Origin: Arthrobacter sp. Br18
GTDB taxonomy: Bacteria; Actinomycetota; Actinomycetes; Actinomycetales; Micrococcaceae
Length of the DNA stretch: 33,591 nucleotides
Reading direction: 5' to 3'
Assembly (NCBI RefSeq): GCF_000520555.1
Contig: NZ_AZSA01000194.1
Location: 1 to 33,591 of the forward strand
Shown: positions 11,823 through 32,789 of the stretch, piece by piece
Layout of the letters: the number at the start of each line of letters is the position of its first letter
Position numbering within the stretch: position 1 is the stretch's first letter
The notes under the pieces: model-generated
The model's database searches: none
Seen by the model: the letters and a program-made list of their open reading frames with translations, nothing else
What the model was told of the DNA's origin: nothing
Position numbers and translations under genes: made by a program

Positions 11823-12602
11823 GTGATGTCATCGAGCATTGCGGTCCATTGGAGCCTGAAGTTGCTGGGATGCTGGGGTCTTGAACGGGAGCACCAGCAG
11901 GCCATCGTGGCTTTTCGGCAGCAGAGGCTCATTGCCGCCCTTGCCCTGAAGGGCGGACGGCGGCGCAGCTCTATTGCCGGTCTGCTGTGGCCGGACTGCA
12001 CCGAGGTCCAGGCATCCGGGAGCCTGCGCGCCTGCCTGTGGAACATCGCGCACCAGCTTCCGGGACTCCTTGAACCGGCCAGTGACCCCCTGTCGCTCGC
12101 GCAAACGGTTTCCATCGACGTTGCTGAGCTGACCGGGCGGATGGATCTCGTCAATCGAGGTGCAACTATTCCGACCGGCTTGGCGGACCAGCTGCGGGGG
12201 GCGAATCTGCTGCCCGGTTGGCACGAGGAGTGGCTCTGGCCGGACCAGGAGAGGTTGAATCGTCTACGCATAGCGACGCTGGAAAACCTGGCCGGGCGCT
12301 TCCTGGCCACCGGTCAGCTCGATGCCGCGCTCGAAGCCGCCACGACAGCTTCCGAACTGGATCCCCTGCGCGAGAGCGCGCAACGGATGCTGCTCCGCAT
12401 CCACCTGGCGGCCGGGAACAATGGTTCCGCCATCCGCAGTTACCGAAGCTATCTCGCGGTTCTCGGGCACGAATGCGGCGTTCGCCCGTCTGCCGGCATC
12501 ACGGATCTCATCCGGCCCCTGCTCCAGGTTCCCCAGGAACAGTCACCGACCCCTCCCCTCGGCGCTGGTCTCGGTGTGGGCCTGCGTCCGTCCTTCGATT
12601 AG
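11823..12602 (+). CDS. SARP-family transcriptional activator (wHTH + BTAD)
   Basis: A 259-aa DNA-binding regulator. Residues of about 8-100 form a compact OmpR-type winged helix (VHWSLKLLGCWGLE, then RQQRLIAALALKGG, IAGLLWPDC and SLRACLWNIAHQLPGLLE), and about 105-245 a bacterial transcriptional activator domain with TPR-like helices (ATLENLAGRFLATGQLDAAL, ESAQRMLLRIHLAAGNNGSA, YLAVLGHECGVRPSAGI). No ATPase or sensor domain follows, so it is a small SARP. The GTG at 11823 is 9 nt after AGGAAG; the ATG at 11826 is an alternative. SARPs typically bind direct repeats at 11-bp period beside the -10 box; such repeats precede the next gene downstream and also the S8 operon, making these its likely targets (inference). 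Confidence 0.85.
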   Translation: MMSSSIAVHWSLKLLGCWGLEREHQQAIVAFRQQRLIAALALKGGRRRSSIAGLLWPDCTEVQASGSLRACLWNIAHQLPGLLEPASDPLSLAQTVSIDVAELTGRMDLVNRGATIPTGLADQLRGANLLPGWHEEWLWPDQERLNRLRIATLENLAGRFLATGQLDAALEAATTASELDPLRESAQRMLLRIHLAAGNNGSAIRSYRSYLAVLGHECGVRPSAGITDLIRPLLQVPQEQSPTPPLGAGLGVGLRPSFD

Positions 12603-12620
12603 CTTCCACCTTGGGGCGGC

Positions 12621-12653
12621 CAGTAACGCGGCAGTAACGCGTGGCATGATATT
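12621..12653 (+). promoter_or_regulatory. 11-bp-period direct repeats and -10: candidate SARP operator
   Basis: CAGTAACGCG occurs at 12621-12630 and again at 12632-12641, an exact 11-bp period. A -10-like CATGAT (12645-12650) or GATATT (12648-12653) follows a few bases later. SARP activators bind heptameric repeats with this spacing in place of a -35 box. Confidence 0.6.
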
Positions 12654-12713
12654 CCTGCCCTAACCGGGCGTGCGACGAATCGGACACCGCCCGGACGAAC
12701 GGGAGGGGTCGCC

Positions 12714-15023
12714 ATGCCGAAGACACTGCCGCCGGGGGTGATCGAGCTCGGGGTGGCCAGCTTCCAGGTGAACGTCATGCCGGACGTCTTCGACTCCAGG
12801 GACCTCGAGTACCGTCCCCGGCTTGCACTGCTGCCCGCGGTTCTGGACCGCCGACCCGTGGACACTCTGGTCCAAACGCAGGAGGGCAACTCCTGCACGG
12901 GCCACGCAATGGCGGCGATGATCAACGCCGTGCTCTCCTCGGCGGGCGCCCCGGTGAGGGTGAGCCCCTACATGCTCTACCGGATGGCCCGCCGCTATGA
13001 CGAGTTCGAGGGAGAGGAGGATGAAGGGTCGTCACTCCGCGGAGCCCTCAAAGGGTGGTTCTACCACGGAGTCCTGCCCACCGAGGACTGGCCTGCCCTC
13101 ACGGAGGATCCCGATCTCGACGGTGATTCCGCCCTCGCAGAGAAAGCCTTCCTGCACCCGCTGGGTGCCTTCTACCGCGTCAATGCCCACCGTCTCGACG
13201 ATATGCAGTCCGCGATCAACGAATTGAACGTGATCGTGGCCTCCGCGCTCGTGCATACGGGCTGGATCGAACCGACCCGGGTCGTGAGATCCGACGGCAC
13301 GAACATGCATGTCATCGAGCGGCCGCCGGGCGCGGGTCAGCTCGGTGGACATGCCTTCACGATCGTCGGGTACAACAGTGTCGGGTTCCTGGTGCAGAAC
13401 AGCTGGGGCACAGATTGGGGATCCGGGGGTTTTGCAACGCTTCCCTACGACGACTGGCTCTCCTCCGCCTACGACGCCTGGGTTGCGCGGCCGGGTGTGC
13501 CCGCCATTGTCCGCACGCGGAACCGTGCAAAGGTGGTCGATACGACGGCGGGAGTGCTCGCCGAAGGGCCCGGCCCGGACCTGGTCCGACTCTCCCGTCA
13601 CGTGGTGAATCTGGGCAACGAGGGAAGGCTGTGTACCACCGGTCGCTTCACCAGCAGCCCTGCGCAGCTTGAACGCATGTTCCAGCGAATGGAGGAGTAT
13701 CACCATTTCTGGCAGGGAACCTCCGCCGGTCCGGATGAAGCGGTGCACCGTGTGGTTCTCTATGCCCACGGAGGTCTGGTCGACGAAAGGTCCGGTCTGT
13801 CCACGGCCCAGGCACAACTGAACTGGTGGCTGAACAACCAGGTGTACCCGATCAGTTTCGCCTGGCAGAGCGGCCCCGTGGAAACCATGCTCAATTCCTT
13901 CGGAGACATGATCCGCGGCAAACTCCCCTTCGGCGGTCTCGGGTTCGATCTGGTCGAGCAGGCCGACCGGTTCGTCGAGAGATTCGCCAGGCAGAACATC
14001 CGGTGGATGTGGGCCGAAATGAAGGAGAACGCGGCGGCTGCCTCGGCACCACTTCCACCTGCAGTCGAATGGCCGCGGAGCGGAGCGGGTACTGACGGCT
14101 GGGCGGGTCTCCCCGGCGCGTCCCTGCTGGCACGGCGGCTGGGGCGTTATGCGGAATCGCTTGGCGGGGGCGCCCTCGAAGTCCACGTCGTGGGGCACAG
14201 CGCCGGATCCATCTTCACGGCGCATCTCCTGTCACGCCTGAAAGAGGAGCGTGTTCCCGTGACCTCAATGACCTGGCTTGCGCCGGCGATCCGGATCGAC
14301 GACTTTCAGCAGTTGGTCCTGCCGCACCTCAAATCGGGCCACGTGAAGAAGTTCGCGTCCTTCAGTCTCCGTGGCGCGCAGGAACTGGACGACGTCGTCG
14401 GGACCGGAAAGTTCAACATCTACCAGAAGTCGCTGCTCTATCTGGTCTCCCACGCCCTGGAGCACGGGGCGGAAGGACGGGGAGGGGGGGAGGTGCCGCT
14501 TTTCGGAATGGAGCGGTTCGTGGACAGCCCGTGTGACGGTTCCACCCTGTCCAGGGTGTTGGAAGCTCCTTCCGCCGACCTGGTGTTTTCTCCTAGCCAG
14601 GGACCGCCGGCGAGCAGCTCCAGCGCCACCACCCACGGCGGGTTCGACAATGACACAGCGACGATGACATCCGTCATGGTCCGGATTCTCCGGCTCGACG
14701 AGGCAACTGAACGTACCCGCTTCCAAGCGCACTCCCCGCTGCTTGATGCTGGACCGGGAGCTGCCCGCGAACCCGCCGGGAATGCATCGGCTCCGTCCCG
14801 TGTCGCCGACGTCGAGCATGCCGGGACGGCCCCCGTGACGAGGATGGCCGCCCCGCAGCCCAATGATGTGCAGGTTCCCGCCTCCGCCGGCCCCCTCCCC
14901 GAGGAACAGCTCGCACCGGAAACCACCAGCCCCGTGATGGATGCCCTGACCCGTCACGGATGGACGGTCGAGTCCCAGGCAGCTACATCTTCCGCCCTGA
15001 AGGCCCCAGGTGGCATTCCCTGA
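12714..15023 (+). CDS. C1 (papain-like) peptidase fused to a serine alpha/beta hydrolase
   Basis: A 769-aa two-enzyme protein, start supported by GGGAGGGG. Residues of about 22-260 are a papain-fold cysteine peptidase: catalytic C61 in TQEGNSCTGHAMAA, H213 in LGGHAFTIVGYN, N229 in VQNSWGTDWGSGGFATLPYDDW. Residues of about 345-600 form an alpha/beta hydrolase: oxyanion-type YAHGGLV (350-356) and the nucleophile elbow VVGHSAGS with S496. The C-terminal 150 residues are Pro/Ala/Ser-rich and probably disordered. There is no signal peptide or transmembrane helix, so it is likely cytoplasmic or bound to the membrane protein encoded next, whose start lies within its last codons (14-bp overlap). Substrates are unknown; the hydrolase half could be lipase-, esterase- or peptidase-like. 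I know of no named family with this pairing. Confidence 0.85.
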   Translation: MPKTLPPGVIELGVASFQVNVMPDVFDSRDLEYRPRLALLPAVLDRRPVDTLVQTQEGNSCTGHAMAAMINAVLSSAGAPVRVSPYMLYRMARRYDEFEGEEDEGSSLRGALKGWFYHGVLPTEDWPALTEDPDLDGDSALAEKAFLHPLGAFYRVNAHRLDDMQSAINELNVIVASALVHTGWIEPTRVVRSDGTNMHVIERPPGAGQLGGHAFTIVGYNSVGFLVQNSWGTDWGSGGFATLPYDDWLSSAYDAWVARPGVPAIVRTRNRAKVVDTTAGVLAEGPGPDLVRLSRHVVNLGNEGRLCTTGRFTSSPAQLERMFQRMEEYHHFWQGTSAGPDEAVHRVVLYAHGGLVDERSGLSTAQAQLNWWLNNQVYPISFAWQSGPVETMLNSFGDMIRGKLPFGGLGFDLVEQADRFVERFARQNIRWMWAEMKENAAAASAPLPPAVEWPRSGAGTDGWAGLPGASLLARRLGRYAESLGGGALEVHVVGHSAGSIFTAHLLSRLKEERVPVTSMTWLAPAIRIDDFQQLVLPHLKSGHVKKFASFSLRGAQELDDVVGTGKFNIYQKSLLYLVSHALEHGAEGRGGGEVPLFGMERFVDSPCDGSTLSRVLEAPSADLVFSPSQGPPASSSSATTHGGFDNDTATMTSVMVRILRLDEATERTRFQAHSPLLDAGPGAAREPAGNASAPSRVADVEHAGTAPVTRMAAPQPNDVQVPASAGPLPEEQLAPETTSPVMDALTRHGWTVESQAATSSALKAPGGIP

Positions 15024-16038
15024 GCCACCGGACCAGCTTCCCCTGGGTGTGCCGACCAACCGGACCTGGCGGGAACAGGCGCTCACCAGCGCGGCCCAGC
15101 TGCGGACTGTCTCGGCATGGCTCGCGCTGACCGACCCGCCGTCCGGAACCGATCCCGGAGCGGACGCGGGCAAGGCCGTGCTGGAGAACGCCATCGCCTG
15201 GCATCTCAACGAAGCCATCAGTGTCGCCTCCCTTAAGTCTCCTGCCATCCAGACCTCGTACAACGGCGCCGTGGTGGAGCGCGTCCTGAGCCACCTGGAC
15301 GCCGCGCGGGTGGCGCTCCTGCTGAGGGCACCGGTCGGCTTCGTCCAGTCGCAGCTACCGAACATCCACGCCCACGTGCGCCTGCACCTGCCGCGGACCG
15401 ATCCGCAGCGGGTGGCCGTCGAGAAGGCTGCAAAGGCAGCGCTGACGACCCCGCTCGACAACGCCTCCCGGCTGACTGTGGTTTCGGCTTTCCGGGCGGC
15501 GTGCGTCGAAGCCCGTGAGGAATTCTCGCGGGTGCGCAGTTTCCGGAATGTCCTGATCATGAGCGCCCTGGTGCTGACCGTTCTGGCTGTTGCCCTCGCC
15601 GTCGCCGGTTGGATCCGGCCCGGTGAAATGCAATTGTGTTTCGAGCCGACCGAAGGACGAGCCTGCCCCACCGGGGACCGCCCCCGACCCTGGGATCTGC
15701 TGTTCATCGAGTCTTTCGGCCTCATCGCGGCAGCAGTTTCCGGAGCTGCGTCCTTGAGGCATGTCCGGGGCACCTCCACGCCGTATGGACTGCCGTTGGC
15801 CCTCGCGATCCTGAAACTACCGGCCGGGGCGCTGACGGCCGTGCTGGGCCTGCAGCTGATGCGGGGCGGATTCGTGCCCGGTCTGAGCGACCTCGACAAC
15901 CCTGCCCAGATCGTCGCGTGGGCCATCACCTTCGGAGCCGCGCAGCAGCTCTTCACCGGGCTGGTGGACCGCCAGGCGCAGACCGTCCTCGACGACATCG
16001 GCGGCAAGACCGGGAGCGACACCAACACCGCCGCGTGA
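15010..16038 (+). CDS. Four-helix membrane protein coupled to the C1/hydrolase gene
   Basis: A 342-aa protein without a recognised family. Residues 1-175 are a soluble, mainly helical domain (for example NAIAWHLNEAISVASL, DAARVALLLRAPVGFVQSQL). Then come four hydrophobic helices: about 180-201, 231-249, 261-284 and 301-319, with a short extracytoplasmic loop holding two cysteines (C210, C219) between the first two. The tail is short and charged. The GTG start at 15010 overlaps the end of the preceding gene by 14 bp, so the pair is translationally coupled and its product is a plausible membrane anchor or partner for the peptidase-hydrolase (inference). It ends 21 bp from the convergent I9-like gene. 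Confidence 0.75.
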   Translation: MAFPEPPDQLPLGVPTNRTWREQALTSAAQLRTVSAWLALTDPPSGTDPGADAGKAVLENAIAWHLNEAISVASLKSPAIQTSYNGAVVERVLSHLDAARVALLLRAPVGFVQSQLPNIHAHVRLHLPRTDPQRVAVEKAAKAALTTPLDNASRLTVVSAFRAACVEAREEFSRVRSFRNVLIMSALVLTVLAVALAVAGWIRPGEMQLCFEPTEGRACPTGDRPRPWDLLFIESFGLIAAAVSGAASLRHVRGTSTPYGLPLALAILKLPAGALTAVLGLQLMRGGFVPGLSDLDNPAQIVAWAITFGAAQQLFTGLVDRQAQTVLDDIGGKTGSDTNTAA

Positions 16039-16059
16039 CAGCCCCGCTGAACGTCACGG

Positions 16060-16290
16060 TCACTGGATGCCGCTCTCTGGCGGAGGAAGCCGGAAAGGCA
16101 ACTCCTCGTCCACCGCGGCAACCCCGTCGACCGCCTCGAGCGCGGAGCGGGAGGCCTGCGGCGCCGAACCCGTGATCATCCCCAGGACGCTCATCACCCG
16201 ATCAACGTCCATCCCGCAGGATCGCAGCTGCTCCGCGACGTCGTTGATGGTGGAGCGGTGCGTCTCCTTCACTGTCACGGTGAGCTTCAT
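16060..16290 (-). CDS. Free-standing I9-propeptide-like protein
   Basis: A 76-aa protein starting 6 bp after the S8 protease stop, with AGGA upstream. The pattern (LTVTVKE strand, INDVAEQLRSCGMDVDRVM helix, VLGMITGSA strand, SALEAVDGVAAVDEE helix-strand) is the beta-alpha-beta-beta-alpha-beta form of inhibitor I9 domains, whose last helix usually reads ...VPGVVSVEED. Encoded as a separate protein beside a protease, it could act as an intermolecular chaperone or inhibitor of the S8 enzyme. No catalytic residues or signal peptide are seen. The fold is inferred from pattern; a different small ferredoxin-like domain cannot be excluded. Confidence 0.65.
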   Translation of the reverse strand: MKLTVTVKETHRSTINDVAEQLRSCGMDVDRVMSVLGMITGSAPQASRSALEAVDGVAAVDEELPFRLPPPESGIQ

Positions 16291-16296
16291 GCCGTC

Positions 16297-17514
16297 CTAT
16301 TCCTGCGGTGCCATGACGAGCCCGGACCCCACGTCCACCGACGGCGCCAGTAGACGATGGCTTTCCTGCATCAGGACGGACCAGAGTTCCCTCCCCCGGT
16401 ACCCGGTGGCCTGCGCCCACAGGGCAGCAACACCGGCAGCATGGGGTGTCGCCATGCTGGTGCCGCTGATCGTGTTGTAGCGGTCGGGCATCAGCCAGGA
16501 GGAGTACACCTGATAGCCGGGACCCGCGATGTCGGCCTGCCCACCGCGGACCGGCAGGGTCCGCGCCGAGAAATACGCGAGGTCCAGCTGCTGGTCCAGC
16601 GCCCCCACTGCCAGGATGAACGGGCTGTTGGCAGGCGCGCCGACAAAGCCGAAGTTGTTCTGGCGTCGGTCGGCATTGTTTCCGGCGGCGGCGATGATCA
16701 ACGATCCCTGGTCGAGCACCCGCCGGCCGATCGCGGTGTACGGCGGATGGACCTGCTGGACGTCGGCCCCGAGGGACATGGAGATGACCGCACAACCATT
16801 CATCATCGCCCACTCGATCCCGGCGATGATCCCGCCGTCGCTTCCCGACCCGGAGTCGCTGAGCACCTTCCCCGCGAAGATCTCCGCCTCACAGGCAACC
16901 CCGTACCCGGGGCCGGTGGACGGTGTCCGCGGACCACAGGAACTACCGATGCAGTGGGTTCCGTGGCCATGCCCGTCCTGTGCCGTCTCGCCGGCGATGA
17001 AGGATTCAACGGTGACCTGACGGCCCGCGAAGTCGGGGTGCGAGGAATCGAACCCGGTATCGAGGACCGCCACCCTGATCCCGTCGCCGGTCCACGGCGA
17101 GGCAGCCGCCCCGGCCGCCTGGAGGCCCCAGGTGAACTGCGGCGTGTCCTGGAACGACGCCGAACCGTCGCCGCCGGTCGCGTCGGAGAGGACATGGTGA
17201 ATCAGTTCGGGCGAGACGGACACCACGTTGGCCTGATTCGACGCGGAGCGCAGCGCCCCCGCCTGCTGCGGGTCGGCCGTCACGACGGCGACGCCGAGCG
17301 CCGCGAAGACGGTGGCGTCCGCGCCCCGGGCCTGCTCGGGGTCAACCGGTCCCCGGCCGAAATCACGGGAACTCGCCACGTTGGACAGACCAGCCGCCGA
17401 CCTCAGGAACGCGGGCGGGTCCGGCTCGGACTCAGCAAAGACGACGATGAAGCGTCCGGTGGTTTCCGGTTCCTGCCTGGTGGACCGGCTTCCGGAGGAA
17501 TCAGGTTCGATCAT
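16297..17514 (-). CDS. Subtilisin-like serine protease (S8) without signal peptide
   Basis: A 405-aa protease with a complete catalytic triad: D152 (VAVLDTGFD), H184 (DGHGHGTHC) and S353 (GTSMATPHAAG), plus oxyanion N279 (AAAGNN). Residues of about 20-110 (TGRFIVVFAESE ... VVSVSPELIHH) look like its own I9-type prodomain. The N-terminus (MIEPDSSGSRSTRQ) is polar, with no signal peptide or helix, unusual for subtilases, so it is either cytoplasmic or exported by an unknown route. It is the first gene of a two-gene operon with the I9-like protein and converges on the C1-peptidase operon; its promoter shares the 11-bp TAAC repeats. No C-terminal extension. Confidence 0.92.
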   Translation of the reverse strand: MIEPDSSGSRSTRQEPETTGRFIVVFAESEPDPPAFLRSAAGLSNVASSRDFGRGPVDPEQARGADATVFAALGVAVVTADPQQAGALRSASNQANVVSVSPELIHHVLSDATGGDGSASFQDTPQFTWGLQAAGAAASPWTGDGIRVAVLDTGFDSSHPDFAGRQVTVESFIAGETAQDGHGHGTHCIGSSCGPRTPSTGPGYGVACEAEIFAGKVLSDSGSGSDGGIIAGIEWAMMNGCAVISMSLGADVQQVHPPYTAIGRRVLDQGSLIIAAAGNNADRRQNNFGFVGAPANSPFILAVGALDQQLDLAYFSARTLPVRGGQADIAGPGYQVYSSWLMPDRYNTISGTSMATPHAAGVAALWAQATGYRGRELWSVLMQESHRLLAPSVDVGSGLVMAPQE

Positions 17515-17550: not shown

Positions 17551-17584
17551 AATGTAGCCACCGCCTCGTTATTCTGCTGTTACT
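17551..17584 (-). promoter_or_regulatory. TAAC repeats at 11-bp period upstream of the S8 protease
   Basis: On the minus strand AGTAAC (17584-17579) and AATAAC (17573-17568) are exactly 11 bp apart, followed 11 bp later by TACATT (17556-17551), a TANNNT -10. This mirrors the repeats before the C1-peptidase gene and lacks a recognisable -35. Confidence 0.5.
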
Positions 17585-20925: not shown

Positions 20926-21831
20926 TTAGTGGCCGATGAGGAGTGCTTCTCGGGCTGCGTCGACGAGTTCGGGTGTGAGGGTCTCGAGTTTGTTGAGGGC
21001 TTGGATTCGGGTGATTTGGGTGAGGAGCCGGTCGACGAGGCGGAAGTTGCCGCCGGTGATGCGGACGATGGTTGCTATGGCGGTGGCGTGGGCGATTCCG
21101 TCATCTGCCGTGTTCTTGGTGGTGGGGAGTCTGTTGGTGAGGACGGCGGTGAGTTCATCGGGTGTCAGGGGTCGGTATTCGTGGGCGAAGCCTATGCGGC
21201 TGTAGAGCTGGGGGTAGCGGGCGAGTCTTTTCTCGATGCCGGGCATGCCGATGAGGATGACGCCCATGTGGTGGCGGTCGAAGTAGTCGCGGACCTGCTC
21301 GAGGCCGGGGGCTTTGAGGCGGTCGGCTTCGTCGATGATGAGGAGTTCGGTGTGGCCGCTGGAGCGGGATTCGGTGTGGACGAAGGGGTCGATATTGCCG
21401 TGCTCGGCGTAGTCCGCGGCGTAGGAGATCTGTTGGCATGCCTGCGGCAGGCCTTGGTCGATTTGTCGGATGGTTGCTGCGACTGTGGGGGTGAAGAACG
21501 CGGTGCGGCCTTGGAGTACCCGTTCCGGTACGGGACCGAGGTCGTCGGCGAAGTCTCCCCGCCATTGGTCCCAGTCGTCGGCGGCGGCGTAGTGGCGGGC
21601 TGAGAGGGTTTTGCCGACGCTTGGTGGTCCCCAGCAGAGCCCGATGTAGCGGTGGACGCGGACCGCGTCGGCGAACTCGGTGAAGCGGCGATGTTCACGG
21701 GTGGTCTGGAGAGGGGGTCGCTCCGGGATTGCTGAAGGTCTGTCGTTGATCTCCCCGAGGGTGTAGGTGAGGAATCTGCGTCCGTCGTCTGCTGCGCCGA
21801 GGACGCTGTGCTTGGGGCTAGTCGGTGGCAT
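20926..21831 (-). CDS. tniB: Transposition helper ATPase (TniB-like, AAA+)
   Basis: A 301-aa ATPase starting at the ATG at 21831 (MPPTSPKHSV); the longer open frame upstream is only read-through of tniA in another frame. Walker A is GPPSVGKT (about residue 70), Walker B LLIIDEADRL, followed by sensor-1 VILIGMPGIE. These proteins bind target DNA and activate or direct the partner transposase. Its start overlaps the end of tniA by 14 bp, indicating translational coupling. Confidence 0.9.
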   Translation of the reverse strand: MPPTSPKHSVLGAADDGRRFLTYTLGEINDRPSAIPERPPLQTTREHRRFTEFADAVRVHRYIGLCWGPPSVGKTLSARHYAAADDWDQWRGDFADDLGPVPERVLQGRTAFFTPTVAATIRQIDQGLPQACQQISYAADYAEHGNIDPFVHTESRSSGHTELLIIDEADRLKAPGLEQVRDYFDRHHMGVILIGMPGIEKRLARYPQLYSRIGFAHEYRPLTPDELTAVLTNRLPTTKNTADDGIAHATAIATIVRITGGNFRLVDRLLTQITRIQALNKLETLTPELVDAAREALLIGH

Positions 21832-23302
21832 AAAGGCGCAATCCGTGTCGTAGGGCGGTCTGTTCAGTGGTTTCATCGGCGGTGATCGGTGTGATGCTTT
21901 GTTCCGCGCTGTCCGGGCTGAGTGGTTCGACCGGCGTATACCGGGTGTCTGCCGGGAGGGCGTCTGCGAGGCTGCGGCGTTGTCGTAGCTGGTCTTTGAG
22001 GTTGCGTCGGCGTTTGGATCGGGCGGCTTGGAGTTCTTCGAGTGAGACGGCGGTCGCGGCGAGTTCCGGGGCGATCGCTCGGCAAAGGTACTCATTGTTG
22101 TAGTAGACGCGGATCTCGCCGACGTCGCGTGGGTTGAACCGGACGGTGACCTGCTCGCCGACGTACGCGGCGAGGACGGGTGAGATGTATCGGGTGGAGG
22201 CGAATTGGACGCCGTCGCGTTGCACTTTCCGGGTAGCGGTCGCGTTGAGCAAAAGCAGGTCGAGGTCTTCGGGTCGGGCCGGGCTGCGCGGAATGAACCC
22301 GGAAGCTGCCCACCGGTGGGCTGGTGTCTCTCCTGTTTGCGAGTGTGGTCGCTGGTTGTAGTCCTCGACGATGAATCGTTCGAGGATCCCGTCGAGCTGT
22401 TCAAGGCTCAACGCCGGCGGCGAGACAGGCTTCCCATTCGTTCCATGCGGAATATACCCAGGCAGGTGGGGCAGGTGGGGCAGGAGTTCGGTAGTGATGG
22501 TGCCGTAGAACCGTTCGATCTTCCCGCGGCCTTGGGGCACCCCGACCCTTGAATGAATGAGCCGGGTGTGAGTATCCAGGCAGACCTGCTCGAGGCGGGC
22601 TGAGGTGAAGTCGGAGCCATGGTCGCTGTAGAGCACATCGGGCAGACCGGACACGGGCCAGGCGGGATTCGTCTTGCGGTTCACGGCCTGGTGCAAGGCC
22701 AGGGCGGTCTGCTCGGCGGTGGGTGCTCCGATAAACACGGTGTACCCGGCAACGGCACGGGAGTAGTCATCGAGTACCACGGTCAACCATGGCCGCACCG
22801 GGTCACCCGTCTTGCCGAGGATCATGACATCGAGCAGGGTATGGTCTGCCTGCCACTGCTCGTTCGGGCCGGTCGCGGTCCGGCGGAACACCAACTCGAA
22901 GCGGTCCCGGTAAGCGGCGTCGCCGTGCTGGGCGAGGGTTCGCAAACCTGGGTCGATTGCGGAGACGATGGTGCGCACACTGGAATAGCTCGGTGCCGGG
23001 ATTTCCCGGTCGCGGGCGATTTCGCTGACGCGCCGGTGAATTAACGCGATTGTGGGTTCGGGTTTCTGTAGCGCCAGTGCCTCGATCGCTTCGATGAGCT
23101 CCGACGGGATGTGTCGTGTGCCGCGGTCAGCCCGACAGGGCCGGTGGAGACCTTCGGACACTGAATCAGCACGGTGTTTCGCGGCCCAACGGCCCAGTGT
23201 CCGCAGGGGAACCCCTGATTCAGCGGCTATACGAGTCCATGGAACACCATCATCGTGCTGGCGCAGCAGTGCGAGCTTGTCCTGGACGCTGCGCTGCACC
23301 AC
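21818..23302 (-). CDS. tniA: DDE transposase (TniA / Mu-like, rve domain)
   Basis: A 494-aa transposase. Residues 1-50 hold a helix-turn-helix (WTRIAAESGVPLRTLGRWAA); a second DNA-binding segment follows (about 60-130). The integrase core has D153 (EQWQADHT), D227 (LYSDHGSDF) and E263 (GRGKIERFYG), a DDX35E spacing. The C-terminal beta-barrel (RYISPVLAAYVGEQVTVRFN, DVGEIRVYYNNEYLCRA) is the Mu-transposase C-terminal domain. The GTG start at 23302 follows GAGGGG and lies 16 bp downstream of the resolvase stop. Confidence 0.93.
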   Translation of the reverse strand: MVQRSVQDKLALLRQHDDGVPWTRIAAESGVPLRTLGRWAAKHRADSVSEGLHRPCRADRGTRHIPSELIEAIEALALQKPEPTIALIHRRVSEIARDREIPAPSYSSVRTIVSAIDPGLRTLAQHGDAAYRDRFELVFRRTATGPNEQWQADHTLLDVMILGKTGDPVRPWLTVVLDDYSRAVAGYTVFIGAPTAEQTALALHQAVNRKTNPAWPVSGLPDVLYSDHGSDFTSARLEQVCLDTHTRLIHSRVGVPQGRGKIERFYGTITTELLPHLPHLPGYIPHGTNGKPVSPPALSLEQLDGILERFIVEDYNQRPHSQTGETPAHRWAASGFIPRSPARPEDLDLLLLNATATRKVQRDGVQFASTRYISPVLAAYVGEQVTVRFNPRDVGEIRVYYNNEYLCRAIAPELAATAVSLEELQAARSKRRRNLKDQLRQRRSLADALPADTRYTPVEPLSPDSAEQSITPITADETTEQTALRHGLRLYATD

Positions 23303-23318
23303 GACCCCTCGCCACGCC

Positions 23319-23880
23319 TAGACTCTGGCGTCTTCGCCGAGGTGCCGGTAGATCGTGCCTCGCGACACCCCGAACGTTTCGGCGATCTGCTGCACCGTGT
23401 AGGTTTTCTCGTCATACATCGCCCGAGCCTGTCGGGCTTTTGTCGGCGTCATCTTGAACCGGCCCCCACCCTTGCGGCCACGGGCCCTCGCTGCGGCTAG
23501 CCCGTCTTTGTGCGCTCAACGATCAGATCGTGCTCGAACTCTGCGATCGCCGCGAGCATGTGAAAGAACAACCGCCCACCAGGGGTCGTCGTATCGATGC
23601 CCTGAGAGAGTGCCTTCAGCCCGATGCCCTGCTTCTCGAGTCCGTCGACGACTTCCTTCAGATTCCGAACCGAACGGCCCAACCGGTCGAGCTTCGTCAC
23701 CACCAAGGTGTCCCCGGCACGCAGATACTCCAGAGCGTCATCAAGGGCCGGCCGCTTCGCGAGAACACCTGAAGCGTGTTCGATGAAGACCTTCTCGCAC
23801 CCGGCGGCCTCGAGCGCATCGGTCTGACCGTCGAGATTCTGCTCCCGAGTCGAAACGCGCGCATAACCGACAGCTGCCAT
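23319..23880 (-). pseudogene. tniR: Serine resolvase/invertase with a one-base frameshift
   Basis: From ATG 23880 the protein reads MAAVGYARVSTREQNLDGQ (nucleophile S10), then KLDRLGRSVRNL, ALSQGIDTTTPGGRLFFHM and AEFEHDLIVERTKTG, where a stop (TAG) appears near 23497. The remaining C-terminal helix-turn-helix (ARARGRKGGGRFKMTPTKA ... YTVQQIAETFGVSRGTIYRH) is intact in another frame down to the TAG at 23319. The DNA reads GGCTAGCCGCA where GGCCTAGCCGCA would restore the frame, so one C is missing. The truncated product keeps the catalytic domain but loses its specificity domain and is likely inactive, unless this is a sequencing error. Confidence 0.85.
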
Positions 23881-30267: not shown

Positions 30268-30271
<4 letters not shown>

Positions 30272-31035
30272 TTCCGGCACTGATCCTGGGGCTCGTCGTC
30301 GGGATCGTGCTGGGTGTGGTCGGGGGCGGCGGATCGATTATTGCCGTTCCCGCCCTGGTCTACGGGGTGGGGCTGAGCACCACCGAGGCGATCCCCACCT
30401 CGTTGCTGGTGGTCGGCGTATCCTCACTGGCGGCGCTCATCCCCCGGTTGCGGGGAAGCATCCGCTGGCCGGTCGCGTTGATCATCGGCGCAGCAGGTAT
30501 TCCCGCGACGTGGGCCGGTGCGGCTGCCGGGCGGTTCCTGGATCCTGAGGTGCTGATGCTCGCCTTCGCCGTCATCATGGTGATCGCCGGTATCCGCATG
30601 CTGGGCACCACCAGCGAAACCGGCGGGTCCTGCACCACAGGGAACACGGTGTGGCGTGCGTGTGCCCCGAAGGCTGTCGGTGTCGGGCTGGCTGTCGGTT
30701 TCCTGACCGGGCTCCTTGGCGTCGGTGGTGGATTCCTCATCACTCCTGCCCTGACCCTGCTCCTAGGGCTCCGCATGAAGCAGGCCGTCGGCACTTCCCT
30801 GGTCATCATCGTCATCAACTCCGCGGCAGGATTCAGTGCCCACCTGGGCGGGTTCACCATCGACTGGCCGATCGTGCTGTCCTTCGCCATCCCAGCCATC
30901 CTCGGATCCCTGGTGGCCGGACGATTCGCCGACAGGCTCAAGGACCAGCACGTACGCACCGCGTTCGCGGTACTTGTCTTCGTCGTCGCAGCCTGGGTCC
31001 TGATCACCACAATCCCCGATCTGCTCACCTCCTGA
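30268..31035 (+). CDS. Sulfite exporter TauE/SafE family permease
   Basis: A 255-aa membrane protein with about eight helices and the family's two-fold motif pattern (GLVVGIVLGVVGGGGSIIAVPAL near residue 5 and GFLTGLLGVGGGFLITPAL near 145). It probably exports sulfite or a related sulfur anion formed by the persulfide dioxygenase. The GTG start overlaps the preceding stop by 4 bp, so it is translationally coupled. A cytoplasmic/periplasmic loop carries two cysteines (GGSCTTGN, WRACAPK) of unknown relevance. Confidence 0.92.
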
Positions 31036-31072
31036 CACCTGTCCAAACAAAACCATTTTTAAGGAGAACCTG

Positions 31073-31369
31073 ATGTCTGAAATCACCGTTGCAGACACCG
31101 ACGCCCGTCGCGGCGCCGACCAGATCCTCGACGTCCGTGAAGAATCCGAGGTGGCCGAGGGCATGATCCCGGAAGCCCTGCACATTCCCATGGGCGACCT
31201 GCATGCGCGGTTGAACGAACTGGACCCTGCTGTCCCTGTGGTCGCGGTCTGCCGCAGCGGTAACCGCAGCTCCACCGCCGCGGAGGCACTGAACCAGGCC
31301 GGATTCACCGCGTCCACCATGACAGGCGGCATGATCGCCTGGCAGCGCGCCGGACTGCCCACCACCTGA
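31073..31369 (+). CDS. Single-domain rhodanese
   Basis: A 98-aa cytoplasmic rhodanese: ILDVREESEVAEGMIPEALH, then active-site C60 in VAVCRSGNRSSTAAEAL and TGGMIAWQRAGLP at the end. It would accept or transfer sulfane sulfur between persulfides and partners. AAGGAGA precedes the ATG; it lies 37 bp after the TauE gene and 64 bp before the dioxygenase gene in one operon. Confidence 0.93.
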   Translation: MSEITVADTDARRGADQILDVREESEVAEGMIPEALHIPMGDLHARLNELDPAVPVVAVCRSGNRSSTAAEALNQAGFTASTMTGGMIAWQRAGLPTT

Positions 31370-31433
31370 AAACCCGCCCGGGACTTCAATCTCAAACCCT
31401 GCACCTGATCGTTGAACACTCAAGGAGAAAACC

Positions 31434-32789
31434 ATGGACGTCATCATCATCGAGACCCCCCAGCTCGGGGACCGCAGCTACCTGATCCACGATGGCGAGG
31501 TGGCACTGGTCATCGACCCGCAACGGGACACGGACCGGGTGGAGAAGACCGCGACCAAAGCTGGGGTGCGGATCACGCACATCGCCGAAACCCACATCCA
31601 CAACGACTACGTCACCGGCGGCCTGGCCTTCGCCAACCAGCTCGGCGCGGTGTATCTCGTGAACGCCGCCGACCCGGTGACCTATGAGCGCACCCCGATC
31701 AGCGACGGCGAAACGATCCAGATCGGAGGTTTCCTGCTGAAGGCGGTGGCGACCCCCGGCCACACCCACACCCACCTGTCCTACATCGCCACCTCCGAAA
31801 CCGGTGAGCAGGCGGTCTTCTCCGGCGGTAGCCTTCTCTACGGGTCCGTGGGACGCACCGATCTGGTCGACGCCGATGACACCGTTGCACTCACCCACGA
31901 CCAGTACGCCTCGGTCCGCCGCCTGGTCGAGGTAGCCGCCGATGAGGCGGCCCTGTATCCCACCCACGGCTTCGGATCGTTCTGCTCCTCGGGCCCGGCC
32001 ACCGGCGCAGGGGAATCCACGGTCGGTGAGCAGCTCTCCACCAACCACGCACTCACCGACCCGGATGAAGAGCACTTCGTGCGCGAACTCATCGCGAACC
32101 TCACCGCGTACCCCTCGTACTACGCCCACATGGGACCAGCCAACACCCAAGGCCCCGGCCCCGCCGAGCTGTCCGTCCCGAACTCGTTGGAACCCACCGA
32201 ACTCTCGCGCCGGCTTGAGGACGGCGAATGGGTGGTGGATCTGCGCAACAGGGTCGCCTACGCCAGCAACCACCTGCAGGGATCAGTGAGCTTCGAATAC
32301 GGCGACGGTTCCAGTTTCACCACTTTCCTGGGCTGGGTCCTGCCCTGGGACAGGAAACTCACCCTCGTCGGAGAACACGACGACGTCGAGAACGCCATCC
32401 GCGATCTCTCCCGCATCGGCATCGATTCCCCCGACGCCGCCCTGGGAACAGACCCACAGAAGCTCGCCCCCGACACCGCCGTCGTTTCTTATCCGCGTCT
32501 CGGATGGGAAGCGATGCTCACCCAGCGTCCCGGCAACGAGACCATCCTGGATGTCCGGCGCACCGATGAATACACTTCCTCCCACATCCCGGGAGCCGTC
32601 AACATCCCCCTGCACGAACTGCTCACCCGCATCGACGAGGTCCCTGCAGGCAAGCTCTGGATCCACTGCGGCTCGGGCTACCGCTCCGGGGTCGGCGCGA
32701 GCCTGCTGCAACGCGCCGGCAAGGACGTCGTCCACATCGACGCGATGTTCGGCAACGCCGAAGAAGCAGGCGTCCCACTGGAATCCTGA
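31434..32789 (+). CDS. CstB-like persulfide dioxygenase-rhodanese fusion
   Basis: A 451-aa protein in three parts. Residues 1-240 are a metallo-beta-lactamase-fold non-haem iron dioxygenase (ETHIHNDYVTGG with H54/H56/D58, TPGHTHTHLSY with H110, D143, YPTHGFGSFC with H178). Residues of about 250-340 are a rhodanese-like domain without a catalytic cysteine. Residues of about 355-450 are an active rhodanese (ILDVRRTDEYTSSHIPGAVN; C412 in IHCGSGYRSG). This MBL-pseudorhodanese-rhodanese order is that of S. aureus CstB, which oxidises persulfide to thiosulfate. The metal motif reads HxHxDY rather than HxHxDH. AAGGAG lies upstream. Confidence 0.93.
   Translation: MDVIIIETPQLGDRSYLIHDGEVALVIDPQRDTDRVEKTATKAGVRITHIAETHIHNDYVTGGLAFANQLGAVYLVNAADPVTYERTPISDGETIQIGGFLLKAVATPGHTHTHLSYIATSETGEQAVFSGGSLLYGSVGRTDLVDADDTVALTHDQYASVRRLVEVAADEAALYPTHGFGSFCSSGPATGAGESTVGEQLSTNHALTDPDEEHFVRELIANLTAYPSYYAHMGPANTQGPGPAELSVPNSLEPTELSRRLEDGEWVVDLRNRVAYASNHLQGSVSFEYGDGSSFTTFLGWVLPWDRKLTLVGEHDDVENAIRDLSRIGIDSPDAALGTDPQKLAPDTAVVSYPRLGWEAMLTQRPGNETILDVRRTDEYTSSHIPGAVNIPLHELLTRIDEVPAGKLWIHCGSGYRSGVGASLLQRAGKDVVHIDAMFGNAEEAGVPLES

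Follow-up and report, generated by a model that had tools for sequence, protein, structure and literature searches.

The question raised by this locus is whether a small SARP-type activator, a papain-like peptidase fused to a hydrolase, a membrane protein, a subtilisin-like protease and a 76-aa partner form one regulated system, and what such a system would do for the cell. The window, the whole 33,591-nucleotide stretch of Arthrobacter sp. Br18 that was analyzed (contig NZ_AZSA01000194.1), carries the five genes side by side; a preliminary description, made from the DNA letters, had listed them as one module, and all five open reading frames lie where it placed them. The two operons converge with a gap of exactly 21 bp, and the promoter repeats it had seen in common are TAAC-N7-TAAC, found upstream of C1H at 12624 (+) and upstream of S8 at 17582 (-).

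11823..12602, + strand: SARP, small SARP-type activator with a BTAD domain (Pfam); predicted regulator of the module
12624..12638, + strand: SARP-type box TAAC-N7-TAAC before C1H-MEM, with a possible -10 within 12647-12655; conserved before C1H in genomes G003 and G009
12714..15023, + strand: C1H, fusion of a papain-like C1 peptidase with an alpha/beta-hydrolase-like serine hydrolase; absent from the locus in some carriers
15010..16038, + strand: MEM, membrane protein without a Pfam family; N-terminal half soluble, three to four membrane segments toward the C-terminus
16060..16290, - strand: I9L, 76-aa S8 partner whose C-terminal tail is conserved; putative cognate inhibitor or chaperone
16297..17514, - strand: S8, subtilisin-like protease (Peptidase_S8) carrying the D-H-S motifs; N-terminal region prodomain-like, no sign of a signal peptide
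17551..17582, - strand: SARP-type box TAAC-N7-TAAC before S8-I9L (17568-17582) with the -10-like TACATT (17551-17556)

The five proteins

SARPs are known mainly as antibiotic-cluster switches. The SARP of this locus contains a BTAD domain (PF03704, 1.3e-14 over residues 134-233) that is also found in the G010 orthologue; residues 1-130 have no Pfam match, and in a test for a winged-helix domain this region is covered in BLAST with SARP relatives. By hydropathy, the first 60 residues of all five proteins are free of any membrane-like hydrophobic segment, in agreement with the signal peptides having been described as absent.

C1H matches Pfam Peptidase_C1 at 2.8e-4, just over the cut-off. In an alignment of the window sequence with 30 chosen relatives, Q56, C61, H213 and N229 of the C1 half and H352, S496, H641 and D645 of the hydrolase half are invariant in 31/31 sequences; the hydrolase half thus has the Ser and His of an alpha/beta hydrolase conserved, the first Gly of the nucleophile elbow G-x-S-x-G is kept in 30 of the 31, and the GHSxG motif is missing in 7 of 55 papain-type ORFs. 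The structural model has a mean pLDDT of 76 (540/769 residues at 70 or above), and, viewed for an alpha/beta hydrolase fold, contains alternating strands and helices; by Foldseek the C1 half aligns with xylellain (3ois, E 4e-16) and papain (E 8e-8), and all 50 PDB matches listed for the model are papain-like or other cysteine proteases. C1H thus has both the Gln-Cys-His-Asn active site and the papain fold that define papain family C1. Relatives of the C1 part are encoded on 16 viral contigs; viral matches to the hydrolase part are weak, and no hydrolase relative in viral contigs was confirmed.

MEM had been described as a four-helix protein; hydropathy places three segments above threshold, and the fourth, near residues 301-319, is a by-eye reading only. 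Translation may instead begin at a later GTG, at 15049. Matches to the MEM profile occur in 32 of 394 genomes of the class, that of the window included, with those in G279 and G405 being weak and partial only, in frames of more than 1,300 aa; in G225 a MEM homologue comes after two genes, one for an Endonuclease_NS protein and one for a trypsin-domain protein whose C-terminus looks hydrolase-like by eye.

S8 carries the Pfam Peptidase_S8 domain (5.4e-41), has D-H-S motifs conserved in three orthologues, and is closest among solved structures to KerA/subtilisin Carlsberg. Of the PADLOC models, S8 matches a generic subtilase far better (2e-22) than the IetS subtilase of the IetAS anti-phage system, which it matches partly (2e-6, residues 142-250); the partner of IetS is an ATPase, and none was noticed by eye beside S8 in the window. 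SARP, C1H, MEM and I9L match no PADLOC model at E 0.1, and no system-specific match extends across several genes of the module.

The name I9-like, by which the small protein had been introduced, was not confirmed: none of 14 family members matches Pfam I9 (PF05922), a structure search gives no convincing PDB relative (best E 0.036), and the I9L profile aligns with the S8 prodomain at an hhalign probability of 6.8%; the single-sequence model is poor (pLDDT 57). Outside the genus I9L lies directly after S8 in six of six free-standing matches, one S8 being a fragment and the free-standing start of some of the six resting on gene calls made in this analysis; four of the 11 I9L matches in the class sample (G168, G397, G409 and G082) lie in frames of more than 1,100 aa and were counted as not free-standing. 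In other actinobacterial genera, too, S8 and I9L form a conserved pair, and I9L is predicted to be the cognate inhibitor or chaperone of S8.

Distribution and linkage

Among 38 congeneric Arthrobacter genomes MEM is present in eight, the carriers, and I9L in seven of these; I9L is convergent with MEM at all eight I9L loci, with gaps of 0-76 bp. A hydrolase domain of this type, fused to either a C1 peptidase or a caspase, is found in exactly the eight MEM-carrying genomes of the 38 (35 + 3 searched). C1H itself is not at the locus in four of the eight carriers, and these four hold a caspase-hydrolase fusion elsewhere in the genome; C1H is an optional member of the module. The co-occurrence of MEM, I9L and the hydrolase domain in the 38 congeners gives Fisher p values of 6e-7 and 2e-8, with kinship ignored. 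On a polA tree of seven of the eight carriers and 25 of the 30 non-carriers (G440 and five non-carriers being left out), carriers appear in four places, with four changes forced by well-supported branches; they are more clustered than shuffled labels (four changes against a mean of 6.5, with 2/500 shuffles as low), and part of the co-occurrence is therefore shared ancestry.

The preliminary description would have been undermined by genes found separately and without linkage; within the genus linkage is conserved, and outside it S8-I9L and MEM occur apart. Only the genome of the window and G417 have both in the class sample, and in G417 they lie on different contigs; no linkage of S8-I9L to MEM was found outside the genus. 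No C1H-type fusion elsewhere was seen together with MEM, S8-I9L or SARP, save in one genome with MEM; as most of these fusions sit among ordinary genes, they do not as a class imply a role in conflict. For DNA outside the window, gene calls came from purpose-written callers, whose starts are approximate and which failed in some very GC-rich loci.

A related SARP precedes MEM in G005, G008, G010 and both G440 copies; beside the locus it is absent in G009 and fragmented in G003. Another short SARP in G009, with boxes near it, could be the stand-in regulator there. The idea of a regulated proteolytic system accordingly stands in part: linkage is conserved within the genus and both operons have a SARP-type box in common, but the five genes are not a fixed unit.

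The TAAC-N7-TAAC box

The box occurs twice in the window against an expected 0.04, and 0/300 first-order Markov randomizations reach two. In the excerpt of PMC10936776 drawn on here, SARP targets are direct repeats in an 11- or 22-bp register with the 3' repeat 8 bp from the -10; the candidate target boxes fit this geometry. Across 16 Arthrobacter loci (273 kb), not selected for the box and with overlaps removed, the N7 spacing is seen 33 times and no other spacing between 2 and 23 more than three times; the N7 count is 45 when overlapping and box-selected loci are included. A -10-like hexamer lies 11 bp beyond the repeat in most aligned cases, and in 37 chosen boxes the T, A and final T of the hexamer at this distance occur in 65, 81 and 73%; the -10 position is a poor match in the three C1H boxes and in several more.

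Within the genus the box is found upstream of S8 in seven of eight loci and of C1H in three of three; G009 has no exact box before S8, though one is present before C1H, and outside the genus the box is absent before 5/5 S8 and 2/2 C1H genes. In related genomes it also lies upstream of the caspase (4/4), the caspase-hydrolase (4/4), an M64-linked operon, a matrixin/astacin-like peptidase and a second S8, and it precedes both operons for contractile injection systems (eCIS) that adjoin the module, in G003 and G440. Because the box stands before peptidase and eCIS genes beyond the locus, the module seems to belong to a SARP-type peptidase/eCIS regulon; a literature search found no paper on this SARP-type peptidase regulon. 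The common control sequence points to one switch for the protease arsenal, putatively read by a SARP-type activator.

Whole-genome counts give 62 box sites against nine for the reversed pattern in the eight carriers, and 12 against seven in seven non-carriers. By hand judgment, 30 of the 62 carrier sites lie directly before a peptidase, MEM or eCIS gene and 32 otherwise, three of the latter (G008:C65, G008:C139:562 and G016:C72) being unclassified. The genome of the window has the two module boxes and three further sites, one of which is 94 bp before an exporter-like gene; the other two have no nearby same-strand gene. An exact box was not found before any of the seven SARP genes tested; in G003 the frame of another BTAD gene begins no more than about 50 bp after a box.

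Proposed function and known systems

The job of the module is inferred to lie in defense, stress or conflict. The preferred reading, possible rather than probable and drawn from sequence comparison, is that the locus makes up one branch of a peptidase regulon under SARP-type control, which would serve regulated cell death or anti-phage/inter-bacterial conflict through intracellular proteolysis. The small SARP encoded beside the module would bind the TAAC repeats and switch the whole set on together; the peptidases, in which no signal peptide was seen, would act inside the producing cell, with S8 restrained by its own prodomain and by co-transcribed I9L. The executioner-type enzyme would be the papain-hydrolase or, in sister strains, the caspase-hydrolase, and MEM would anchor the response at the membrane; once activated, the system would dismantle the cell or an invader, in some strains together with an eCIS. 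A stricter form, in which one activator and its box would fire caspases, the hydrolase-fusion executioner, an inhibitor-guarded subtilisin, metallopeptidases and sometimes an eCIS as a SARP-commanded death program, is considered doubtful; if true, bacteria would here have a proteolytic cascade governed by a defined transcriptional switch.

It is unlikely that the SARP instead turns on intracellular turnover proteases for stress or nutrient recycling at entry into stationary phase, with eCIS and caspases as other late-phase genes. Cytoplasmic subtilisins with dedicated inhibitors are known, such as Bacillus Isp1/IPI (PMC3901451, as excerpted); S8-I9L pairs in other genera sit among ordinary-looking genes, and the box also precedes non-peptidase genes such as the exporter-like gene. 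The patchiness of the module (8/38 congeners) and its association with eCIS and caspases are, however, unlike core turnover genes. A further reading, in which the contractile particle is loaded with the peptidases as eCIS cargo and injects them while I9L guards the producer, is suggested by the eCIS operon adjoining C1H-MEM in G003 and by the eCIS between the two module copies of G440; both carry the box, and the tested eCIS-associated toxins reported in the consulted part of PMC8213781 include peptidases. This is improbable: an eCIS adjoins the module in only two of eight carriers, with none found beside it in the other six, and it lies on the MEM side in G003 but on the SARP side of the second copy in G440; MEM, as a membrane protein, is an unlikely cargo. 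A search with the G003 sheath in 36 genomes, covering seven of the eight carriers (without G440), found an eCIS sheath among those seven only in G003, and the genome of the window has no detectable relative of it. Since the sheath is confined to G003 among these carriers and eCIS adjoins the module in 2/8, the cargo reading is retained as a rival only. In the examined loci, BLAST for eCIS genes, run without the loci of G003, G030 and G054 and the G440 eCIS locus, gave only short matches in two overlapping G110 loci and an AAA match belonging to the G440 eCIS.

Chance neighborhood at an insertion hot spot, with genes traveling together without joint function, is very improbable; seven of nine MEM loci, that of the window included, lie at most about 11 kb from polA and/or a Sua5-type gene, eCIS and transposase-like genes occur at the same site, and C1H comes and goes. 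Against this, G009 holds C1H-MEM><I9L-S8 together at a different place from the polA/Sua5-type site, and the box, conserved upstream of both operons, turns up again at caspase loci that are not linked to them.

The preferred regulon reading would tie caspases, two classes of hydrolase fusion, subtilisins, metallopeptidases and injection machines into one candidate regulon through the SARP-type box; this would give a concrete frame to bacterial caspases and further orphan peptidases, about which there has so far been mostly guesswork as to their roles, and the TAAC repeat would be a handle for finding further members from sequence alone.

Several published systems resemble parts of the module. 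The excerpted text of Kaur et al. 2020 (PMC7159879) describes VMAP systems in which caspase domains always have an alpha/beta-hydrolase neighbor, and NTP-dependent conflict systems that pair caspase or trypsin with such hydrolases; the peptidase-hydrolase pairing is alike, here with the hydrolase fused to the papain-like or caspase domain; the module differs in having a SARP regulator and an S8 with its small partner. MoxR, vWA or VMAP genes were not noticed by eye, without HMM, among the genes called beside the module. That BTAD regulators are tied to eCIS has been published before: in the part of Geller et al. 2021 (PMC8213781) considered here, BTAD is among the eCIS shell domains, and adjacent GerE or BTAD genes are proposed as regulators of eCIS operons. 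The eCIS of G003 and G440, under the same box as the module, are alike in this respect; the same part of that paper names no common binding site, caspase or S8-I9L pair, and 6/8 carriers have no eCIS beside the module.

CisA, a membrane protein needed for firing of the Streptomyces CIS, is single-pass with a periplasmic C-terminal domain in the section of PMC12237407 used here; both CisA and MEM are actinobacterial membrane proteins linked to CIS, but MEM is beside an eCIS in two genomes only, and identity with CisA is ruled out on topology, MEM having three to four membrane segments. The closest likeness for S8-I9L is Isp1/IPI, again a cytoplasmic subtilisin with a small dedicated partner; IPI has an Ig-like fold in the excerpt cited above, whereas I9L has its conserved tail and no detectable relative of known structure, and the pair hints at a new family of small proteins that partner subtilisins in the cytoplasm.

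Linkage and distribution of the module

The window, one entire contig (G000:C49) of a 3.54 Mb draft genome, holds a module of five genes: a small BTAD activator (SARP), a papain-like C1 peptidase/alpha/beta-hydrolase-like fusion (C1H), a membrane protein (MEM), a subtilisin-like protease (S8) and its 76-aa partner (I9L). The five open reading frames of the preliminary description were reproduced by a sequence check, in the stated order and with the convergent gap of 21 bp; MEM and C1H overlap by 14 bp, taking the first listed MEM start, and the S8 to I9L spacing is 6 bp. The absence of signal peptides, also claimed there, agrees with hydropathy, by which none of the module proteins has a hydrophobic N-terminus. 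By eye, an IS21-type IstA/IstB-like pair and a resolvase-like gene were recognised at 20926-23880 of the window, pointing to mobile DNA close to the module. Also by eye, consecutive TauE-like, rhodanese-like and metallo-beta-lactamase-like genes at 30268-32789 resemble a sulfide-oxidation set.

MEM is present in 8 of 38 Arthrobacter genomes (nine loci; these genomes are termed carriers) and I9L in seven (eight loci); the two genes are convergent at all eight I9L loci, where they lie 0 to 76 bp apart, and G003 has MEM without I9L and S8. The hydrolase domain of C1H occurs in exactly the same eight genomes as MEM (35 genomes were searched together and the other three separately); within the locus of G000, G003, G009 and G016 its fusion partner is a papain domain, and at a separate locus of G005, G008, G010 and G440 it is a caspase domain. 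Of the co-occurrence proposed as a check on the set, the MEM-I9L linkage is kept in the genus, but the papain fusion is missing from the locus in the latter four genomes. A related SARP gene lies immediately upstream of MEM in G005, G008, G010 and both G440 copies (the last two called only in part); upstream of C1H, such a gene is present in the window and in fragments in G003. G009 has none next to the locus, and G016, whose contig begins within C1H, is left out of this count.

In a polA tree covering 32 of the 38 genomes, the seven carriers included branch at four places, and four changes are the minimum that its branches with good support allow. Carriers nevertheless cluster more tightly than under label shuffling (four changes versus a mean of 6.5; 2 of 500 shuffles as low). 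The set is thus considered to have been gained or lost together on more than one occasion, with shared ancestry within two of the carrier groups; one block may have been transferred horizontally.

Profile matches to MEM were obtained in 32 of 394 genomes of the class (the window's own included; two are weak). Some of the neighbours are peptidase or cell-wall genes (S8 with M14; CHAP or peptidoglycan-binding proteins), one homologue lies immediately downstream of a SARP gene, and others sit amid ordinary-looking genes. At L169:3649-8873 (G225) a trypsin-domain protein, an Endonuclease_NS protein and a MEM homologue follow one another in one apparent operon; by eye, the trypsin-domain protein has a hydrolase-like C-terminus.

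The C1H fusion and the S8-I9L pair

All 31 aligned C1H sequences (that of the window plus 30 picked across several phyla) share the papain Gln-Cys-His-Asn residues and, in the hydrolase part, H352, S496, H641 and D645. For the most part both domains are modelled with fair to good confidence (mean pLDDT 76); the nearest solved fold to the papain half is xylellain, and the hydrolase half of the window's C1H has no Pfam match. Among the best 80 of 157 hydrolase loci from 84,980 species genomes, the motif in the same ORF is papain in 55, caspase in 18 and neither in 7; GHSxG is absent by motif in 7 of the 55 papain-type ORFs. MEM adjoins C1H at only two of these best 80, both Arthrobacter, and in one further genome, G138. 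Papain-hydrolase fusions (L045-L124) are seen in many phyla (e.g. Luteimonas, Alteromonas, Methylobacterium, Sulfurovum, Herbidospora), mostly amid unrelated genes.

Outside the genus, all six I9L matches counted as free-standing in the 394 class genomes directly follow an S8 gene, which in one case is a fragment only. The small protein had been labelled I9-like, and profile and structure comparisons did not establish an I9 fold; 13 of 14 members retain the final Gln, most of them with LPPP-like residues ahead of it, and this C-terminus fits a putative product-like inhibitory tail.

The TAAC-N7-TAAC box and the genes behind it

The promoter repeats previously noted as shared by both operons correspond to a TAAC-N7-TAAC direct repeat (the box), found twice in the window, before C1H and before S8, against 0.04 expected. 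Within the genus the box is upstream of S8 at 7 of 8 loci (the exception is G009) and of C1H at 3 of 3; outside it, the box was found before 0 of 5 S8 genes and 0 of 2 C1H genes, and it precedes none of seven SARP genes tested. Across 16 non-overlapping Arthrobacter loci picked independently of the box (272,660 bases), the N7 spacing occurs 33 times and each other spacing from 2 to 23 at most three times; the three are of N18, which corresponds to a 22-bp register. For 37 selected boxes, the hexamer starting 11 bp past the second TAAC begins with TA in most and ends with T in 73%, the -10 fit being poorer for C1H boxes and some others; the TAACNNN half-site is thus placed 8 bp ahead of the -10 element. 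According to PMC10936776, SARP targets contain repeats in a register of 11 or 22 bp, the 3' one lying 8 bp from the -10 element; as judged from sequence, the geometry of the box is that described.

A strict pattern including the -10 element gives 13 sites in 7 of 12 genomes; G009 alone of the eight carriers lacks a site, the four non-carriers have none, and the reversed pattern has none in all 12. A looser pattern gives 62 sites versus 9 reversed in the eight carriers, and 12 versus 7 in seven non-carriers; G006, which has a short SARP gene and lacks the module, has 4 versus 0. Four TAAC half-sites in an 11-bp register lie near a short SARP gene of G006, before a 703-aa gene (L203:9412-9448).

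Thirty of the 62 sites, as assigned by hand, lie directly upstream of a peptidase, MEM or an operon for an extracellular contractile injection system (eCIS, phage-tail-like); Pfam supports the scanned members for caspase, M64, M10/M12A, S8 and sheath/tube.

Genes directly downstream of the box
S8: 7 sites
C1H: 3 sites
Caspase: 4 sites
Caspase-hydrolase: 4 sites
Second S8: 2 sites
Matrixin/astacin-like metallopeptidase: 3 sites
159-aa gene preceding an M64 peptidase gene: 2 sites
MEM: 1 site
First eCIS gene, G003 and G440: 2 sites each, from a triple repeat

The remaining 32 include sites before a 302-aa gene of no assigned family, divergent from the metallopeptidase gene, a repeat protein with WNGxWHDW motifs, and a pair encoding a membrane protein and a Big_2 protein, each in three genomes, together with sites before other genes, sites without a nearby gene and three left unclassified. 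The membrane protein of the pair has a weak sigma-70 region 4 match, under the cut-off, and the pair is a possible second regulatory layer. The box-preceded pair is seen at L259, L262 and L264 (G010, G440, G005), with the Big_2 domain protein in L259.

Association with injection systems and proposed role

In G003 an eCIS (sheath, tube, baseplate) lies downstream of C1H-MEM on the same strand; in G440 a complete-looking eCIS is situated between two module copies, with M64 and Sua5-type genes at both ends too, which looks like the outcome of an island recombining into this site. The two eCIS differ, their sheaths being 38% identical over 189 residues, and a search of six further carriers with the G003 sheath found no relative. 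The flanking SARP-MEM-I9L-S8-M64-Sua5 blocks of G440:C18 (L227, L231, L228) have diverged from each other. G030, a genome that does not carry the module, has a third eCIS of the genus; the exact box does not occur in the 19.9 kb examined there. A survey places BTAD among eCIS shell domains and proposes adjacent BTAD genes as eCIS operon regulators (PMC8213781); the common box and the peptidase set are what the present analysis adds to this published link.

Gene linkage, a conserved box, conserved active-site residues and N-termini that are non-hydrophobic by hydropathy are established at the sequence level. In the proposed mechanism, SARP would bind the boxes and co-activate the genes, I9L would inhibit S8, the peptidases would act in the cytoplasm, and MEM would couple the response to the membrane. 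The module may serve in cell death or conflict, the former reading being suggested because caspases and eCIS are apparently co-regulated; it is hypothesized to be a peptidase-based conflict or death system under a known type of activator. The full-text literature matches listed, whose coverage leaves out most subscription papers, contain no SARP regulon of peptidases or caspases and no description of the S8-I9L pair, or of the papain-hydrolase fusion treated as a system; pairings of caspase with alpha/beta-hydrolase are already known (PMC7159879). A conserved separate locus in G008, G010, G005 and G440 (L022, L023, L024, L232) has two promoters with a SARP-type box and contains a stand-alone caspase, a RelA/SpoT-domain gene, a caspase-hydrolase fusion and a 550-aa protein with an HEVTH motif.
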